From Maribacter hydrothermalis (lineage in GTDB: Bacteria; Bacteroidota; Bacteroidia; Flavobacteriales; Flavobacteriaceae), in NCBI RefSeq assembly GCF_001913155.1, contig NZ_CP018760.1:1860001-1924000 (forward strand): a stretch of 64,000 bases of DNA, read 5' to 3'. This document shows positions 26,669 to 34,265 of the stretch, one piece after another. Position 1 is the first letter of the stretch; each line of letters begins with the position of its first letter. The notes beneath the pieces are model-generated. The model searched no databases and was not told the DNA's origin. It saw only the letters and a program-made list of their open reading frames with translations. The position numbers were made by a program, and so were the translations under genes.

Positions 26669-26840
26669 TATAAAAATACGACAAGGGCATTATGTTGATT
26701 ATTGGATAAAACTTAAGGTTTTAAATAGTATTCTTAACTATTGAAAAGCTTATTTATAGAAAGAATGTAAATTAGTGTCCGATTTGGTCTTTGAGTACGA
26801 TCAGACTGTATTTTTATCACCTAGAGAACTAATTTATAAC

Positions 26841-27035
26841 ATGTCTGACATTTCTATTTTTAACGACACCTTTGAATTGTGGTTAACACTTTTGGGACCC
26901 TTAGCTTTGTTCCTGTTATTAGGCTGGTTTTTTAGGTCTGCCGGAAAAAGGAGAACTGCGAAAATATTCTTTTACTTTGCTTTATTCTATGTGACTCTTC
27001 TTATAATTCTGTCGCTTATTCTAATTTCAGGATAA
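26841..27035 (+). CDS. Small two-helix membrane protein, first gene of the Lgt-like/radical SAM operon
   Basis: A 64-residue protein from the ATG at 26841; a GTG at 26775 would add 22 residues with no clear benefit. It has two transmembrane helices (about 16-30 and 41-62) joined by a basic loop (RSAGKRRTAK). The pattern GPxxLFxxxG - S - basic loop - AK - F recurs in the small protein that closes this operon (29162-29359), suggesting the two are related. Its stop codon overlaps the next start (TAATG). No family recognised; a subunit or membrane adaptor for the neighbouring enzymes is inferred. Confidence 0.6.
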   Translation: MSDISIFNDTFELWLTLLGPLALFLLLGWFFRSAGKRRTAKIFFYFALFYVTLLIILSLILISG

Positions 27036-27799
27036 TGATGACCATACCTTTTGAGCCTATTGTATTCGATATAAAACTTAACATACATCTCATATTAGAA
27101 TATCTGGCGTTCTTTGTCGGATTCAGATACTATGTTTTTCTACGTAAAAGAAGTACAGATGTCATTTCATCTAACAACCGGCTCTCCATAATAATAGGTG
27201 CTGTTTTTGGGGCTTTGTTTCTCTCTAGGGTAATTGCTTTTTTTGAAAATCCCGTAGCTCACTTACAAGAAGATTGGCTTTATAATTTGAACAATAAAAC
27301 CATAATAGGCGGACTATTTGGTGGTCTACTTGGTGTGGAGCTTGCCAAGAAGATTATTGGGGAGAAACATTCTTCTGGAGACTTATTTACATTACCCATT
27401 ATACTAGGCATTATCATTGGAAGAATTGGATGTTTTTTGTCGGGCATAAAAGAGTTTACCTATGGAAAAGAAACTTCTTTTTTTACGGGTATGGATTTGG
27501 GTGACGGAATTACTAGGCACCCCATTGCGTTGTATGAAGTGGTATTCTTGATTATTCTTTTTATTATCATCCGAAGTTTACAAAAATCGAATAGGACTTT
27601 TAAAAACGGAGATCTTTTTAAGCTCTTTATGGTAGCTTATTTTACCCTTCGTTTCTGTATCGAGTTTATAAAACCCAACAGTTTTTATACCCTTTGTCTA
27701 AGCAGCATTCAACTATTATGTTTAATTTGTTTGGTTTACTACCATAAATTCATCCTACGGGGAATTACATATGTCCGAAAAAAATTACACCTATTATGA
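27035..27799 (+). CDS. Divergent Lgt-like (prolipoprotein diacylglyceryl transferase family) membrane protein
   Basis: A 254-residue polytopic protein with about seven helices. The Lgt pattern is present: IIGGLFGG (91-98) at the place of the HGG motif, GRIGCFLSG (129-137) with R130, RHPIALYE (161-168), and RFCIEF (206-211) matching the essential Arg region of Lgt. Notably the His of the HGG motif appears replaced by Ile91, so normal diacylglyceryl transfer to lipoprotein cysteines is doubtful. The start overlaps the previous stop by one base (an ATG at 27038 is an alternative), and its last 29 bases overlap the radical SAM gene. A lipid-binding or altered transferase role beside a Tes-like enzyme is inferred. 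Confidence 0.7.
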   Translation: MMTIPFEPIVFDIKLNIHLILEYLAFFVGFRYYVFLRKRSTDVISSNNRLSIIIGAVFGALFLSRVIAFFENPVAHLQEDWLYNLNNKTIIGGLFGGLLGVELAKKIIGEKHSSGDLFTLPIILGIIIGRIGCFLSGIKEFTYGKETSFFTGMDLGDGITRHPIALYEVVFLIILFIIIRSLQKSNRTFKNGDLFKLFMVAYFTLRFCIEFIKPNSFYTLCLSSIQLLCLICLVYYHKFILRGITYVRKKLHLL

Positions 27800-29165
27800 T
27801 TTTACGTTAAGCCTTTGCCCGGAATGTTTACGACGGGTAGATGCTAAAATCGTTTTTGAAAACGAAAAGGTATACATGCTTAAAAATTGTAAAGAGCACG
27901 GTAGATCTAAAGTGCTTATCGCTGATGATATTGCATATTATAAGAATATAAGAAACTATAATAAGGCGTCTGAATACCCCAAAACATTCAATACAAAAAC
28001 GCATTATGGTTGCCCTTATGATTGCGGATTGTGCCCTGATCATGAACAGCATTCTTGCCTTACGGTTATTGAACTAACCGATCGTTGTAATCTTACTTGC
28101 CCAACTTGTTATGCTGGTTCTTCACCAACTTATGGCAGACATAGATCCCTTGAGGAAATAAAGAAAATGCTCGATGTTATTGTGAAAAATGAAGGTGAGC
28201 CAGATGTGGTGCAGCTTAGTGGTGGTGAACCTACCATACACCCTAATTTCTTTGAAATTCTAGATTACGCAAAATCACTCCCCATTCGGCATTTAATGTT
28301 GAATACCAACGGAATAAAAATTGCCAAGGATTTTGAATTTGCTAAGCGATTAGCCACCTATGCACCAGATTTTGAAGTGTATTTACAGTTCGATTCGTTA
28401 GACAATAAAGTGCTGCAAACCTTACGCGGAGCAGACCTAGCCGATGTTCGTTTAAAAGCTTTAGAACACCTTAACAAATTGAACCTTTCTACGACTCTTG
28501 TAGTCGTGCTACAAAAAGGGTTGAATGACCACGAAATGGGAAGTACTATAGATTTTGCACTCAAGCAAAAATGTGTACGCGGCGTTACTTTTCAACCTAC
28601 GCAAATAGCAGGTCGTTTAGATAATTTTGAAGTGGATGAAAACCGTATCACCTTAACAGAAGTACGAAGAAAAATACTAGAGCAGTCCCCTATTTTTGAG
28701 TCGGACGATTTAATACCTGTGCCCTGTAACCCCGATGCCTTGGTAATGGCTTATGCTTTAAAATTGGGCGATGAAGTAAATCCACTTACACGATTCATTA
28801 ACCCTGATGATTTACTAAACGAAGGAAAAAACACCATTATTTACGAGCAAGACGAGCAGTTACATGGTAAAATGATTGAACTTTTTAGCACGGGAAATTC
28901 CGTTGAAAAAGCATCTGAAAATTTAAAGAGTATTATGTGCTGCCTGCCAGAAATTGATGCGCCAGAGCTTGGATATGATAATTTGTTTCGTATCATTATT
29001 ATGCAATTTATAGATGCCCATAATTTTGATGTACGTGCTATTAAAAAATCGTGCGTGCACATTGTAAATAAGGATTATAAAATCATCCCGTTTGAAACTA
29101 TGAACCTGTTTTACAGAGATGATAAAATTGAACGACTTAAAGAACTACAAAACGAAATATTATGA
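27771..29165 (+). CDS. Tes/MJ0619-like radical SAM protein with auxiliary Cys motifs
   Basis: A 464-residue radical SAM enzyme. Before the core it has a rubredoxin-like N-terminal set, C16-x2-C19 and C40, then C81-x3-C85-x2-C88 and C96, suitable for an auxiliary Fe-S cluster. The radical SAM motif is C106-x3-C110-x2-C113, followed by QLSGGEPTIHP and a partial TIM barrel. This order matches COG1964 (MJ0619 and the archaeal tetraether lipid synthase Tes), which couples lipid tails through carbon-carbon bonds. Further Cys occur near the C terminus (IMCCLP). It overlaps the Lgt-like gene by 29 bases and the following small gene by 4 (ATGA). A role on lipids is inferred; another radical modification is possible. 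Confidence 0.75.
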   Translation: MSEKNYTYYDFTLSLCPECLRRVDAKIVFENEKVYMLKNCKEHGRSKVLIADDIAYYKNIRNYNKASEYPKTFNTKTHYGCPYDCGLCPDHEQHSCLTVIELTDRCNLTCPTCYAGSSPTYGRHRSLEEIKKMLDVIVKNEGEPDVVQLSGGEPTIHPNFFEILDYAKSLPIRHLMLNTNGIKIAKDFEFAKRLATYAPDFEVYLQFDSLDNKVLQTLRGADLADVRLKALEHLNKLNLSTTLVVVLQKGLNDHEMGSTIDFALKQKCVRGVTFQPTQIAGRLDNFEVDENRITLTEVRRKILEQSPIFESDDLIPVPCNPDALVMAYALKLGDEVNPLTRFINPDDLLNEGKNTIIYEQDEQLHGKMIELFSTGNSVEKASENLKSIMCCLPEIDAPELGYDNLFRIIIMQFIDAHNFDVRAIKKSCVHIVNKDYKIIPFETMNLFYRDDKIERLKELQNEIL

Positions 29166-29359
29166 TGTTAGAAGTTGGAAATCTAGACGGCCTTTTTGCT
29201 TTAATTCTTCTTATAATGTTTGGTCCTGCCCTTTTATTTATAATTATCGGAGCCATTTTGTTATCCAAACAAAAGAAAAAGGCCGGTAAAGTTTTTATGA
29301 TATTGGCAGGTGTTTATTGCCTAATAAGCCTTGGTATATGCGGTACAATGATGGCATAA
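29162..29359 (+). CDS. Small two-helix membrane protein closing the operon
   Basis: A 65-residue protein with two transmembrane helices (about 12-33 and 42-62) and a basic connecting loop (SKQKKKAGK). Its GPALLFIIIG - S - basic loop - GK - F layout resembles the first small protein of the operon (26841-27035). The start codon overlaps the stop of the radical SAM gene (ATGA), which indicates coupled translation; the ATG at 29165 is an alternative start. No family recognised. Confidence 0.6.
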   Translation: MMLEVGNLDGLFALILLIMFGPALLFIIIGAILLSKQKKKAGKVFMILAGVYCLISLGICGTMMA

Positions 29360-29365
29360 TAGCTA

Positions 29366-31765
29366 TTATAAACGCTTACCTTCATCCGTGCTCTTTCTCT
29401 TAGAATTATCGCGAATTTTTGTATTACCAAACTTGTACCTGAAACCAAAGACCAATAATCTGTTTTCTGATCTTGTATTTACAATAGTGCTCTGTTCAAG
29501 ATAATCTCTTGTTGAGATTGTATTTCCCGTATTAAAAATATCCTCAACACCTAGAGAAATGCTTGCATCCTTATTCCAAAATGTTTTTCTAAGAGATACT
29601 CCCAATTTACTATTAGAATCAAAAGTGGCGTTACCATAAATATATGGCGAAAAATAAATAAAGGTAATATCTGCATACAACGATTTATCCTTTAACAAGG
29701 TAAAGTAATTATTGGCGCGTATCAACGTGGTCCAAATAGAGTTCTCTTGTATTGTATTTGTACTTAAATCCGTAAAACTATCCTTATCGCGATAGTGGCT
29801 AACAAGAAAATATAAGTACCAATAATCTGTTAATTCTTTTGATACACTAACATCAACACCATAAAAATAATTAGTCTCTAAATTTATAACTTGTGTACTA
29901 AGTATGTTAGTGGCATTATCTTGCGTTATTTGTTGTACCTGCTCATTAGATTTTTTAGTGGCGAATAACACCACTTTATAATCGCGGTCGTATACATAAT
30001 CAAATTGGATATCATCGCTATAAGCAGGTTTTAAATTAGGATTACCTTCATATATAGAATTTGCAGATAGGTAAAATTGAAAAGGATTAATAGTACTGTA
30101 CCTGGGTCTGGTAATCCGTCTAAAATACTTAAGGTAATACGCATTTTTATTTGACGTATATGATAAAGCCATATTAGGGAAAAAATCTAAATAAGAGTTT
30201 GTGTTTAATGCGGTAGATATGTTTAAATCTCCTTTTGTATCGGTATACTCCGAACGCAAACCTAAATTTAATTTCCAATCTTCCCAGTTACTGTTCAATG
30301 TTAAATAACCTGCATAAATTTGTTCATCATACTTAAATAAACCCGAATCCGTTGGGTTAAATCCGTCTACCGAATCATTAAAACCAGACTGCGTTATACT
30401 TGCCTGGGAATTAATAGTTGCTACTCTTAAACCTGTTTCCATTATAGATTGTTTTGATAATGGCAGTGTAAGATCTGTTTGTGCACTAAAAAGATTTATA
30501 ATTTGATCAGACCAAACTCTTAATGTATTTTCTGAGGTATTGTCGGTAAAACCTTGTACAATGTTATTATTCAATACTTGTTTCCGCTTAGAATCGTAAT
30601 AGGTATAATGTACATTAGTAGATAACTCCGCACCTTTATCATTTAACTTATGTACCCAATCTAAATAGTTAGATGAGTTGTAATTATCGTTTTTTAGTTC
30701 GTTGTGGCCATTTAACTGTGCGGTTAAATCTCCATTAATCGTATTAATATCCGTACTTGCAAAATTATTTCCTGTTCCGTTTGGTAATAAGCTAGAAGTA
30801 GAGGAAAGACTTATTGTATTCTTGTCGTTCAATTGTAAATCTAAAAAAAGATTAATGTTGTGACTTTTTTCTTTATTGATCAATTTTTGTTCTGAAGTCC
30901 AAACTTCACTTTTTTGTCCATTTTCAAAAAAAGAGGTAATGTCTGTAAATCTACTCCAATTTCTATTATGGCTAAAACTATAGTTGGCAGAGAAGTCTAT
31001 TTTTTTTCCCTTGAAAAAATGGTCAGTACCTATGGTATGTTTGGGTAATACCCCTTGCGTATATCTATTAAAGACAGCTCCATTATAACCTGCAACCAAG
31101 TTTTTTTTCATTTTAATATCAATAAGTAATCCTCCTTCAGCACTATATTTTGCTGGAGGGCTTGTAATTACTTCAATAGATTGTACATTGCTTGCAGAAC
31201 TACCGGTAAGGAGGTTTATGATATCTTCTTCGGGTAAATTAACTAGCTTACCATTGATCATGACATTTACATTTGGACTGCCATTTATGTATAAACGGTT
31301 ATTCATTACCATTACTCCTGGGGTGCGTTTTAGAACATCCCAAATATCACTATCTGATAATGACGTATTCTCGATATTAAAAATGTGACGGTCTGCCAAC
31401 TGTTTTAGCACTGGTTTTTTTTGAGTAACCACGACTTCATCTAGCTCCTGAGCATTTTGAATAATAAGTGGATTAATTTCAATATCTGTAGACAATTGAA
31501 TTATTTCACTTTCTACCGTATTGCCTATATAACTAGCTACTATTTTATATTTTTCTTTTTTAAATACGACAAATTCATAAATACCTTCTTCATCGGTAGT
31601 TGTACCCTTAATAAAATCTCCCCCCCCAGACAGTAGCAATACATTTACCAAAGCTATTGGCTTTTGGTCATTATCTATGACTAAACCTTTTATCTTATAT
31701 TCTTGTGAATAAGTAATTGAAATAAATAAGCAAATAAAAAATGCAGTAATAAAATTCCTATTCAT
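29366..31765 (-). CDS. TonB-dependent receptor-like outer-membrane protein (OMP_b-brl_3 type)
   Basis: A 799-residue protein: signal peptide (1-20), a carboxypeptidase-regulatory-like domain (about 23-110, IKGLVIDNDQKPIALVNV), a plug domain (about 115-215, including LKRTPGVMVMNNRLYING and EVITSPPAKYSAEGG) and a long beta-barrel (about 225-790). It lacks an obvious SusC signature and no SusD gene follows, so it is not a typical polysaccharide-utilisation transporter. It is tandem with a paralogue (31860-34265), 94 bases apart. Substrate unknown. It converges on the radical SAM operon, 6 bases away. Confidence 0.9.
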   Translation of the reverse strand: MNRNFITAFFICLFISITYSQEYKIKGLVIDNDQKPIALVNVLLLSGGGDFIKGTTTDEEGIYEFVVFKKEKYKIVASYIGNTVESEIIQLSTDIEINPLIIQNAQELDEVVVTQKKPVLKQLADRHIFNIENTSLSDSDIWDVLKRTPGVMVMNNRLYINGSPNVNVMINGKLVNLPEEDIINLLTGSSASNVQSIEVITSPPAKYSAEGGLLIDIKMKKNLVAGYNGAVFNRYTQGVLPKHTIGTDHFFKGKKIDFSANYSFSHNRNWSRFTDITSFFENGQKSEVWTSEQKLINKEKSHNINLFLDLQLNDKNTISLSSTSSLLPNGTGNNFASTDINTINGDLTAQLNGHNELKNDNYNSSNYLDWVHKLNDKGAELSTNVHYTYYDSKRKQVLNNNIVQGFTDNTSENTLRVWSDQIINLFSAQTDLTLPLSKQSIMETGLRVATINSQASITQSGFNDSVDGFNPTDSGLFKYDEQIYAGYLTLNSNWEDWKLNLGLRSEYTDTKGDLNISTALNTNSYLDFFPNMALSYTSNKNAYYLKYFRRITRPRYSTINPFQFYLSANSIYEGNPNLKPAYSDDIQFDYVYDRDYKVVLFATKKSNEQVQQITQDNATNILSTQVINLETNYFYGVDVSVSKELTDYWYLYFLVSHYRDKDSFTDLSTNTIQENSIWTTLIRANNYFTLLKDKSLYADITFIYFSPYIYGNATFDSNSKLGVSLRKTFWNKDASISLGVEDIFNTGNTISTRDYLEQSTIVNTRSENRLLVFGFRYKFGNTKIRDNSKRKSTDEGKRL

Positions 31766-31859: not shown

Positions 31860-34265
31860 TTAATTTTCTAGTCGTTCTCGTTCTGTTTTTTCAATGCTGC
31901 GGTCGTTGTCTTCAAGTCTGAAATTTCCAAAATTATATGTGAATCCAAATTTAACGTATTGCGTTTCGGGTACAGTTAAATAGCTATTGTTTTGATTCAA
32001 GTACCTTGAGGAAATATAAGCATTGTATTTACCCAAAAGGTCATTAGCGCTTATACTAAATACCGCTCTGTTCTTTAAAAATGATTTTCTAAGGCCTAAC
32101 GTTAAATTAATTGATTCCTCTTGTAGATATGAACCTTGTAAGAATCCAGATAAATAGGTGAAGCCCAATTCACCCTTAAAAGTACCATCTTTAGAAATCG
32201 TTAAATAGTTTGTCAAATCTATATATGCTCCATTATACTCATTCTTAAAAGAATAAGGAGTGCTCTGTAATGCTATAAATGTTTCGTCTTCATGAAACAA
32301 AGAAATGTAACTATAGAGGTACCAATTATTGCTAATTGATTTACCATAGGTGAAATCTAAACCAAATGATGTGCTTTCAAGAACATTTTGAGTAATATCT
32401 CTTAAAACTAAATTTTCGTTGTCCTGAAAAGTTAATGTTGAGATATATTGACCATTATCCCTATAATAAAAATCGAAAAAGTATTCTTGATTAAGTGTGT
32501 AGTTAAAATTAAAGTTATGGCTAAAACTTGGCAAAAGATTAGGATTCCCCTCTACAAAAGTTCGTTCATTAATATATGTTCTAAACGGATTTAAATCTTC
32601 GTACCTAGGGCGTTGTAATTTTCTAGAATAGTCAAAAGAAAGACTATTATTCTCATTAATATTATGAAGTATGTATAACGAAGGAAACAACTCCAAATAC
32701 TTAAGGTTATTAATATTGGTTACGTTTTGCGAAATACCTGTACTCTCTGTCTGCTCTGCTCTTAACCCCGATTTTAAAGTCCACTTTTTCCAGTCTTTTG
32801 AAAAACTAAAATAGGCAGCATAAACACGTTCATCATAATTATAATCATCGGACAAGTTTGGAATAAATTCAGAACCATTATTACGTAAAAAATAGTCTAG
32901 CTTACTTTCAGAATTTATAAAGGAACCTTTTACTCCCGTTTCTAAAAACACAGTTCCTACATAATCGTTATAATCTACTTGGGCTGTTTTAATTTCAATT
33001 TGTTGGTCCACATTTGTAGCAAAATTAAAATCGCGTATAAAAGATCCATCAGGCAAAAAATAATTAGAATTTACATTCTGTGTTCTCATAAGGTCAAAAT
33101 AAGTGTAATGGGCATTTACATTTAAATTACCTTGATTTTTAAATTTATGTTTAAAGGTTAGATCGCCAGAAATATTGTTCTTTTTTTCATTTAAAAAACT
33201 CCCTGTGGTAAATGTAGAATCTAAAACATTTAATCCATTTTTTATCGTGGTATTCTGAAAAAAATCTGATTCTTTTTTAGGTTGTAACTGGGCATTAGTA
33301 GTTAAACTAAGTGTATTCTTGTCATCAAATTCATAATCTATTACCAGGCCTACACTGTGCGTATTACTACGTATTATTTGGTCAAAATCTGTGTCCCAAA
33401 TAGAAAATATACCTGTTTCATTTAAATAATTGGTGTTATTTAAAGTATTAACGAATTCCTTTTTTGGAATAAAAGTATAGCTCGCATTCAAATTTAATTT
33501 ATCCGTTTTATAAAAATGAGAAGTGCCAAAATTGTATTTCGGAAATACACCTTGCGTATACCCGGCACTTATATTCCCTTTATAGCCCACAGATAAATTT
33601 TTACTGGTGACAATATTTAAAATGGAGCCGCCTTCTGCATCATAACTTGCTGGTGGATTATAAATAACCTCAACCGACTTTATATTTTCCCCCTGGTAAT
33701 TTTCTAAAAGATTCCGAACCTCTTCTGATGATAGTTGTACTTTACGATTATTTATATAAACCGTAGTTGCTTGGTTACGTACTTTTAACTCGTCATTCAT
33801 AACAATGACTCCTGGAGTTTGGCGTAAAATGTCCCAAGAATTATTTTGCGATATCACCGTGTTTTCAACATTAAAAACAATGCGATCTACCTTTTTTTCC
33901 ACAACTGGTCGGTTACTTATTACAGTTACTTCATTAAGTGCTTGCGCTTGTTGCTCTATAATTACAGCACCAATTTTAGTGTCCCTTAAAATCTCTAAGG
34001 CAAGATTATTGGACATTTGTCCTACATAGGATGCTTTTAAAAAGTATAGCCCTTCCGGTATATTAGAAATTGAGAAATTGCCGTTCTCGTCTGCTGAGGA
34101 TCCTTTAACCAATACAGAATCTGTTACGGTTAATAAAAAAACAGAAGCAAACGCTACCGGTTCTTGAAATTGGTCTTTTACCTCGCCTTTTAACTCGTAG
34201 GTTTGACCAAAAGCACCTTGTGTTATGCTAAAGGTTAACAACAGAAAAGCAAATAGTAGTCTCAA
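31860..34265 (-). CDS. TonB-dependent receptor-like outer-membrane protein, paralogue of the next gene
   Basis: An 801-residue protein of the same plan as its neighbour: signal peptide (1-20, GAFGQ), regulatory-like domain (about 22-112), plug (about 118-220, with LRQTPGVIVMNDELKV and EVIYNPPASYDAEGG) and barrel to the end. The plug and barrel motifs show that it and 29366-31765 arose by duplication, but they are clearly diverged. A TAnnTTTG box lies 20 bases before its start. Ligand unknown; the pairing suggests related but not identical substrates. Confidence 0.9.
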   Translation of the reverse strand: MRLLFAFLLLTFSITQGAFGQTYELKGEVKDQFQEPVAFASVFLLTVTDSVLVKGSSADENGNFSISNIPEGLYFLKASYVGQMSNNLALEILRDTKIGAVIIEQQAQALNEVTVISNRPVVEKKVDRIVFNVENTVISQNNSWDILRQTPGVIVMNDELKVRNQATTVYINNRKVQLSSEEVRNLLENYQGENIKSVEVIYNPPASYDAEGGSILNIVTSKNLSVGYKGNISAGYTQGVFPKYNFGTSHFYKTDKLNLNASYTFIPKKEFVNTLNNTNYLNETGIFSIWDTDFDQIIRSNTHSVGLVIDYEFDDKNTLSLTTNAQLQPKKESDFFQNTTIKNGLNVLDSTFTTGSFLNEKKNNISGDLTFKHKFKNQGNLNVNAHYTYFDLMRTQNVNSNYFLPDGSFIRDFNFATNVDQQIEIKTAQVDYNDYVGTVFLETGVKGSFINSESKLDYFLRNNGSEFIPNLSDDYNYDERVYAAYFSFSKDWKKWTLKSGLRAEQTESTGISQNVTNINNLKYLELFPSLYILHNINENNSLSFDYSRKLQRPRYEDLNPFRTYINERTFVEGNPNLLPSFSHNFNFNYTLNQEYFFDFYYRDNGQYISTLTFQDNENLVLRDITQNVLESTSFGLDFTYGKSISNNWYLYSYISLFHEDETFIALQSTPYSFKNEYNGAYIDLTNYLTISKDGTFKGELGFTYLSGFLQGSYLQEESINLTLGLRKSFLKNRAVFSISANDLLGKYNAYISSRYLNQNNSYLTVPETQYVKFGFTYNFGNFRLEDNDRSIEKTERERLEN

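Follow-up and report, generated by a model that had tools for sequence, protein, structure and literature searches.

A gene trio of a Tes-like radical SAM protein, an Lgt paralogue and a cysteine-tailed small membrane protein in Maribacter hydrothermalis: a candidate system for C-terminal protein lipidation

Introduction

The radical S-adenosylmethionine (SAM) enzyme Tes (GDGT-MAS, MJ0619) and Lgt, which acts on phosphatidylglycerol (PMC8689077), are among the closest described relatives of two proteins encoded by overlapping genes of Maribacter hydrothermalis. The genes lie within a stretch of 64,000 nucleotides (RefSeq assembly GCF_001913155.1, contig NZ_CP018760.1, positions 1,860,001 to 1,924,000 of the forward strand), which was analysed as a whole and is called the window below. 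In this study we find that these two genes and the small gene that follows them, whose product ends in a hydrophobic helix and a cysteine, form a conserved three-gene unit that is spread beyond Bacteroidota. We tentatively propose, giving it a little less than an even chance, that the operon is a self-contained system that lipidates the C-terminal Cys of the small membrane protein, with the Lgt paralogue as the transferase and the radical SAM protein as the enzyme that tailors the lipid.

Several described systems resemble parts of this locus. Tes shares with the radical SAM protein a ribbon with C/C/C/H ligands, the cysteines of an N-terminal cluster and the CX3CX2C core, but the C-terminal cysteines are altered here, Tyr459 is absent, the protein lies on a separate branch and its gene stands in an operon with Lgt-like and Cys-tail genes. 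The radical SAM (seleno)protein TrsS (NF045646) is the best NCBIfam match and is matched over nearly its whole length, at 330.1 bits against a cut-off of 490. The bacterial membrane-spanning lipid synthase Mss, compared here by its description only, is reported to be Tes-like in structure (PMC13274423). Ordinary Lgt, of which the host has a separate copy, differs from the window paralogue at His103, N146 and Y26 and in the stretch between the GRxG and RHP motifs. A classical lipoprotein signal peptide shares with the small protein a positive flank, a hydrophobic helix and a Cys at the end of the helix; in contrast, the signal here closes the protein at its C-terminal end, the Cys is followed by 1-14 residues and there is no lipobox. 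The name of the NCBIfam model lipo-invert (NF058595) suggests a C-terminal lipoprotein-like anchor, which is the same idea, and the existence of this model indicates that its curators had a related idea elsewhere. However, its cut-off of 37 bits is well above the scores of gene 1 of the window (12.3 bits, E 0.16) and of the small protein of locus L032 (8.2 bits, E 3.1); the model is not among the matches listed for the small proteins of Mycobacterium branderi, and the term did not occur in the papers searched. No description of the three-gene combination was found in a literature search that covered titles and the beginnings of abstracts, with subscription papers mostly outside it.

Gene organization and co-occurrence

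The window carries four open reading frames (ORFs) on the plus strand (26775-27035, 27035-27799, 27771-29165 and 29162-29359) that overlap by 1, 29 and 4 bases, as described in the initial annotation of this DNA, which began gene 1 at the ATG at 26841. Their features are listed below, with residues of E. coli Lgt (EcLgt) given for comparison.

26775..27035, plus strand: gene 1, small membrane protein of 86 aa (GTG start) or 64 aa (in-frame ATG at 26841); cysteine-less relative of gene 4, not part of the core
27035..27799, plus strand: Lgt-like membrane protein, 254 aa; Pfam LGT, predicted Lgt fold
27422..27433, plus strand: GRIGC motif, R130 (= EcLgt R143) to C133 (= N146); R in 59/59, C in 58/59
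27650..27652, plus strand: R206 (= EcLgt R239), 59/59
27771..29165, plus strand: Tes-like radical SAM protein, 464 aa; rubredoxin-like ribbon, N-terminal auxiliary cluster, core, altered C-terminal domain
28011..28034, plus strand: C81/C85/C88, N-terminal auxiliary cluster, aligned with the Tes cluster cysteines
28086..28109, plus strand: C106/C110/C113, radical SAM CX3CX2C, matching the Tes core
28725..29054, plus strand: C319, C390, C391 and C428, candidate C-terminal auxiliary-cluster cysteines from an alignment of 51 rows
29162..29359, plus strand: gene 4, membrane protein of 65 aa; positive loop, last helix, G-x-C (Cys60), five-residue tail
29339..29341, plus strand: Cys60 codon, proposed acceptor; invariant Cys of the gene 4 family

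The four genes had been taken as one unit, but gene 1 was not found in close relatives: no gene 1-like ORF stands upstream of the Lgt-like gene in any of seven same-genus loci examined, and the conserved operon therefore consists of three genes. The ratio of nonsynonymous to synonymous substitution rates (dN/dS) against seven same-genus genomes is 0.01-0.02 for the radical SAM gene, 0.07-0.11 for the Lgt-like gene and 0.05-0.14 for gene 4; these ratios are rough, with dS above 1 in many comparisons, and fit constraint on all three alike. Counting incomplete assemblies, 27 of the 36 genomes from this genus carry the radical SAM gene.

Strong evidence for the unit comes from the co-occurrence of its genes, the failure of which had been named beforehand as an outcome that would refute the membrane-lipid or lipoprotein interpretation of the operon. 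Among 296 Bacteroidota genomes scanned (radical SAM at E<=1e-40, Lgt-like at E<=1e-12), the radical SAM gene was found in 26 and the Lgt-like gene in 27; one of the latter, in G189, is an ordinary Lgt that keeps the His motif and was dropped from the pair count, leaving 26. Both genes occur in 25 of the 27 sampled genomes that hold either one, G066 being a genome with the radical SAM gene and no Lgt-like partner and G017 one with the Lgt-like gene alone. In G034 and G272 the two genes sit on different contigs and both are retained, so that the link is not merely one of shared position.

Named genomes were scanned with an alignment of radical SAM proteins, and the best 80 of 587 matches, those nearest to locus L028, were read; because they were chosen by nearness, their taxa give no prevalence, and the taxonomy of several, which are metagenome bins, may be wrong. 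These loci come from Bacteroidota, Cyanobacteriota, Bacillota, Pseudomonadota, Chloroflexota, Actinomycetota, Acidobacteriota, Elusimicrobiota, Armatimonadota, Myxococcota, Planctomycetota, Spirochaetota and two archaeal bins, so the gene set is not special to Bacteroidota, the setting in which it had first been considered. The search used the radical SAM protein alone, and 72 of the 80 loci have an Lgt-like gene within 5 kb. The share is 68 of 72 among loci whose upstream flank exceeds 1.5 kb, and 64 of 65 among those that in addition extend over 1.4 kb downstream. Where the Lgt-like gene lies upstream (67 loci), the median gap to the radical SAM gene is -7 bases. Eight loci have no Lgt-like gene nearby; four of them (L079, L086, L088, L109) start at the radical SAM gene and L046 ends after it. 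The trio is also kept in very distant loci of Mycobacterium branderi, Nonomuraea and Ktedonosporobacter. The M. branderi plasmid carries an Lgt-like gene, two Cys-tail proteins (SGGLC-TG and TVGVC-TG) and a radical SAM protein 27% identical to that of L027, while in Nonomuraea a similar tail ends an ORF of 368 residues whose start codon is uncertain.

Gene 4 and the cysteine-tail proteins

Gene 4 had at first been treated as a passenger, but its C-terminal Cys proves to be the most telling feature of the locus. Both the G and the C of G-x-C are invariant in all 120 listed homologues, of 380 found in protein databases, and in 22 chosen members the Cys is the sole invariant column besides Met1. 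In the flanks of the loci, small membrane proteins with a hydrophobic helix followed by a Cys at the end stand mostly directly 3' of the radical SAM gene, and tails such as LGIC-G, IGFGTC, IGAGAC, LNAAC and VGFSVC are seen next to the pair in several phyla. A scripted scan of 104 loci called 104 Cys-tail proteins, spread over 79 of the loci; 67 of these proteins are less than 60% identical, and [ILV]-G-F-[GS]-x are the commonest residues before the Cys. One to three copies were called per locus where any was called, which suits substrates. A net positive stretch precedes the last helix in 97 of the 104 tails, and this flank should place the Cys outside, on the side of Lgt.

The 104 tails were picked for having a Cys, and two further tests were made without such selection. 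Among membrane ORFs that start between -70 and +150 bases from the radical SAM stop codon in 98 loci, a Cys falls within the final 20 residues in 61 of 63, against an expected share of 21% from Cys frequency (p 5e-39, a value that is overstated because the loci are related). With a gene 4 profile at E<=1e-5, homologues were found in 13 of the 296 Bacteroidota genomes, and all 13 are within the 25 genomes that hold the pair; two weaker matches (1e-4 and 4e-4) fall in genomes without the pair. The remaining 12 pair genomes have no match to the profile, and some of them hold another Cys-tail protein.

No family of Pfam or NCBIfam scored above its cut-off in the small proteins scanned. Gene 4 weakly matches the C-terminal half of DUF4064 (PF13273; E 0.0021, 18.7 bits against a cut-off of 32.1), a family without an attached function that is precomputed on one of the 120 listed homologues (P0320). 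A weak domain match in a small protein of locus L119 is to a zinc-ribbon N-terminus; in this Planctomycetales bin (L119:8208-9749) three tandem proteins have zinc-ribbon-like N-termini and C-terminal membrane Cys tails, suggesting that diverse N-terminal parts may bear the Cys tail. On another contig, L115, binned as Thalassarchaeaceae (archaea), the radical SAM and Lgt-like genes are followed by proteins that have EF-hand-like N-termini and a membrane helix, with no Cys tail seen on them.

The Lgt-like protein

The central membrane protein was rightly assigned to the Lgt type, with 81 bits to Pfam LGT (PF01790) against a cut-off of 24.9. A structure comparison gives it a predicted Lgt fold, the structural alignment (VIA-align) covering the top 1000 chains of Foldseek. 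Its score with the equivalog model TIGR00544 is 39.8 bits, below the cut-off of 118.9. In all 59 Lgt-like proteins aligned, H103 of EcLgt (in the HGG motif) is replaced, with one row, L101, having a His within five columns, and both key arginines, EcLgt R143 and R239, are retained in all 59. In addition, N146 is changed to Cys and Y26 to His, and the stretch from GRxG to RHP is shortened to a median of 32 residues (55 measurable sequences) from 53. The nearest named relatives of the window protein are from Maribacter. That this gene is the only Lgt of the host was considered and rejected, since an ordinary Lgt of 320 aa is encoded elsewhere in the genome. In Flavobacterium davisii (L048:5280-5970) the Lgt-like gene reads as two ORFs.

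The new Cys of the Lgt-like protein opens another explanation, in which the small protein is a structural subunit of a complex with the Lgt-like protein, and its Cys, perhaps with Cys133, forms a disulfide or binds a metal and receives no lipid. Both are membrane proteins, and each has a fixed Cys (58/59 in the Lgt-like protein), which speaks for such a partnership. However, a copy number of one to three and poor conservation outside the tail between lineages are unusual for a fixed subunit, and we regard this explanation as distinctly improbable.

The radical SAM protein

The radical SAM protein matches Pfam Radical_SAM (PF04055) at 98.6 bits and Zn_ribbon_HMPTM (PF23545) at 71.4 bits, and among proteins of solved structure it is closest in sequence to MjTes (7tol; E 1.1e-70). 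The description of this protein as Tes-like thus stands as homology, but not as membership: it scores 293.2 bits with the Tes model NF045702 against a cut-off of 450. Ten relatives, eight from other phyla and two from Bacteroidota, have Tes scores of 262.5 to 347.3 and are all under the Tes and TrsS cut-offs, as the window protein is, so that assignment to either family was rejected; the TrsS model had no match over its cut-off in the 296 Bacteroidota genomes.

The rubredoxin-like ribbon C16/C19/C40/H43 matches Tes in the alignment. Ahead of the CX3CX2C core, the cysteines C81/C85/C88/C96 are present as first reported, but C81/C85/C88 align with the N-terminal auxiliary cluster of Tes and are therefore a shared Tes feature and not an extra one; C96 is not in MjTes. 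The Tes ligands of the ribbon and the N-terminal cluster and Met439 are taken from PMC9433317, while the Cys ligands of the C-terminal auxiliary cluster are read off the alignment, the available text of that paper naming only Met439 there. The MjTes-type C-terminal cluster (Met439 region, CC, PFC) is not found in the window protein, where position 427 is Ser, 442 is Glu and Tyr459 is Ile, with Met439 kept. In the main clade the Tes-type cysteines 427 and 442 and Tyr459 are lost and C319, C390/C391 and C428 are kept. The Tes-type C-terminal cysteines are retained in L047 and in the type of L030, L175 and L176, indicating that their loss is not a condition for the link with Lgt.

In a tree of 51 rows, 47 proteins of the Lgt-associated groups are split from MjTes, L147, L172 and L173 with a support of 96/94; MjTes is partial in this tree, the root is arbitrary, L172, L147 and L173 are on long branches, L116 was left out, and some few of the 47 were assigned to their group through related proteins because their contigs end before any Lgt-like gene is visible. 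A tree with MjTes had been suggested in the initial annotation, and the split bears on the idea raised there that the operon acts on membrane lipids. In this explanation, bulk lipids with membrane-spanning or cross-linked tails would be made by the Tes-like enzyme, while the Lgt-like protein would handle head groups and the small protein would be an accessory subunit. The homology to MjTes over the ribbon, the N-terminal cluster, the core and part of the C-terminal domain speaks for this explanation, as does the phosphatidylglycerol substrate of Lgt. On the other side, the protein falls under the Tes cut-off and outside the MjTes branch, and the main clade has lost the two Tes-type cysteines and Tyr459. 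A further point against it, weak in that minor or unsought lipids could escape and that the genome considered here is that of a close relative and not of the strain itself, is a soil strain reported with ordinary and 3-hydroxy fatty acids (PMC10025309). In its rRNA gene this strain has 99.27% similarity to Pedobacter panaciterrae strain 048 (LGEL), whose genome is evidently the source of locus L060, and in the available part of the report the word "diabolic" occurs in the reference list only (PMC10025309). We consider a role in bulk lipids unlikely, though well short of negligible.

L147, from the Bacteroidota genome G066, is Tes-like at 32% identity, keeps the Tes-type C-terminal cysteines and has no Lgt-like gene near; it is more promising as a genuine enzyme of membrane-spanning lipids. 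L172 and L173, which lie on plasmids of haloarchaea and Mycolicibacterium, are Tes/TrsS-like genes; a methyltransferase gene comes after each of them, with no Lgt-like gene in the stretch read.

The small protein could instead be the direct substrate of the radical SAM protein, which might for instance introduce a thioether or a different bond at the tail Cys, as in the maturation of a ribosomally synthesized and post-translationally modified peptide (RiPP), with the Lgt-like protein as a lipid-binding scaffold. Proteins that are small and variable, that can occur in several copies and that keep a single Cys next to a radical SAM gene do resemble RiPP precursors, and the loss of His103 fits a non-catalytic Lgt-like protein. 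Nevertheless, the best-scoring models are TrsS and Tes and not peptide maturases, the charge pattern sets the Cys away from the cytoplasm, and both Lgt arginines are fully retained, which together make this explanation very doubtful.

Proposed mechanism and its significance

A lipid or lipoprotein theme for the operon, as suggested from the start, is plausible, and a set made of an enzyme, a tailoring enzyme and a substrate is the most economical reading of homology, predicted fold, co-occurrence, gene adjacency and the invariant Cys of the gene 4 family. In the lipidation that we propose, the last helix of gene 4, its positive cytoplasmic flank and the outward Cys would mimic a lipoprotein signal peptide at the end of the protein, with the C-terminus predicted to be outside. 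The Lgt-like enzyme would transfer a diacylglyceryl-type lipid to the tail Cys, which would be the acceptor, by a catalytic site that appears to be rebuilt: the two arginines are kept, but His103 is gone, one His and one Cys are new, and the stretch before RHP is shorter. The Tes-like radical SAM enzyme, on the cytoplasmic side, may alter the lipid's acyl chains, either ahead of the transfer or following it; this role, drawn by analogy with Tes, is the weakest step.

Several observations weigh against this proposal. E. coli Lgt is inactivated by a change of His103 (PMC8689077), and since this residue is gone in every Lgt-like protein aligned, the paralogue may not be a transferase at all. The radical SAM protein is presumably cytoplasmic and Lgt works outside, so that their coupling needs a further step, none of which is seen here. 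None of the 104 tails fits the lipobox [LV][ASTVI][GAS]C (canonical pattern from PMC8689077), although this would also suit a dedicated transferase. As to the tails, the script saw no Cys-tail protein in 25 of the 104 loci, several of which show one in a looser listing and six of which have less than 400 bases left downstream, and none is apparent near L016, L049, L058, L066, L079, L085, L097, L101, L109 and L115, although L049, L066, L085, L097 and L101 do have an Lgt-like gene. Among the tails called, those of 69 aa in L047, 48 aa in L007 and 51 aa in L045 are probably spurious ORFs. Compared with other hydrophobic ORFs of the same loci the contrast is smaller (82/93 against 48/108, p 3e-11), a comparison that is a poor control because unannotated or spurious ORFs are Cys-rich; the two tests made without selection for a Cys are better controls. 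As to the pairing, G017 carries an Lgt-like gene with neither partner near, L081 and L117 have no Lgt-like gene despite more than 5 kb upstream (their contigs end just after the radical SAM gene), L080 has both flanks and none, and L147, L172 and L173 have none near. Moreover, the scan alignment was built mostly from Lgt-bearing loci, and with the 80 loci being those nearest to L028 the pairing rate holds for this branch only and not for all Tes-like proteins.

A variant gene order occurs in a clade formed by L032, L033 and L042-L046, where the radical SAM gene is followed by genes for an ICMT-type methyltransferase, a DUF4395 protein and the Lgt-like protein. A Cys-tail protein lies 3' of the Lgt-like gene in L032, L033 and L042-L044; the L045 call is probably spurious. 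The DUF4395 proteins are over the cut-off in 5 of 5 scanned, and the L044 copy was seen by a local profile. The methyltransferases pass the Pfam cut-off of ICMT, a family named for methylating isoprenylcysteine, in all six complete proteins, the seventh (L046) being cut by the contig end, and their presence speaks for the lipidation proposal. This raises a bolder form of the proposal, a bacterial counterpart of eukaryotic CaaX lipidation: a C-terminal signal would direct the Lgt paralogue to join a lipid remodelled by the Tes-like enzyme to the Cys, possibly with coupled tails that would staple the protein across the membrane, while in this one clade an ICMT homologue would methylate the trimmed C-terminal Cys. 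The comparison draws on CaaX processing as generally understood and on the ICMT match. However, the same six proteins also pass the Pfam cut-off of PEMT, a phospholipid methyltransferase family, so that the ICMT reading is not firm, and we hold this extension to be quite unlikely.

If the proposed lipidation is true, it would be a second route of protein lipidation in bacteria of many phyla, with a C-terminal signal and a dedicated radical SAM enzyme to tailor the lipid. Leaving the mechanism aside, the trio gives a conserved context for a large unassigned branch of Tes-like proteins. This has an implication for geochemistry, where published screens take Tes homologues of bacteria as potential sources of membrane-spanning lipids (PMC8941075, PMC11868695), one of them at a threshold of e<1e-50 and identity >20% (PMC8941075); members of this branch may be counted in such screens for the wrong reason.

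Gene 1 and neighbouring genes

Gene 1 is weakly homologous to gene 4 (E 6.7e-05) and has no cysteine; no further significant homologue of gene 4 was found in the host, the next having an E of 0.18. In 20 other relatives gene 1 gave two weak matches only, one of which (G305) is probably the gene 4 of that genome, as it lies directly beside the radical SAM gene there. Together with its absence upstream of the Lgt-like gene in the seven same-genus loci, this led us to reject gene 1 as a core part. It is possible that gene 1, at the head of the operon, is a recent duplicate of gene 4 with another role or is on its way out.

The RNA search gave one tRNA. On the opposite (minus) strand, immediately 3' of the operon, lie genes for two tandem proteins resembling outer-membrane beta-barrel/TonB receptors (29366-31765 and 31860-34265), which are 32% identical to each other and of which the first (29366-31765) was scanned with Pfam.

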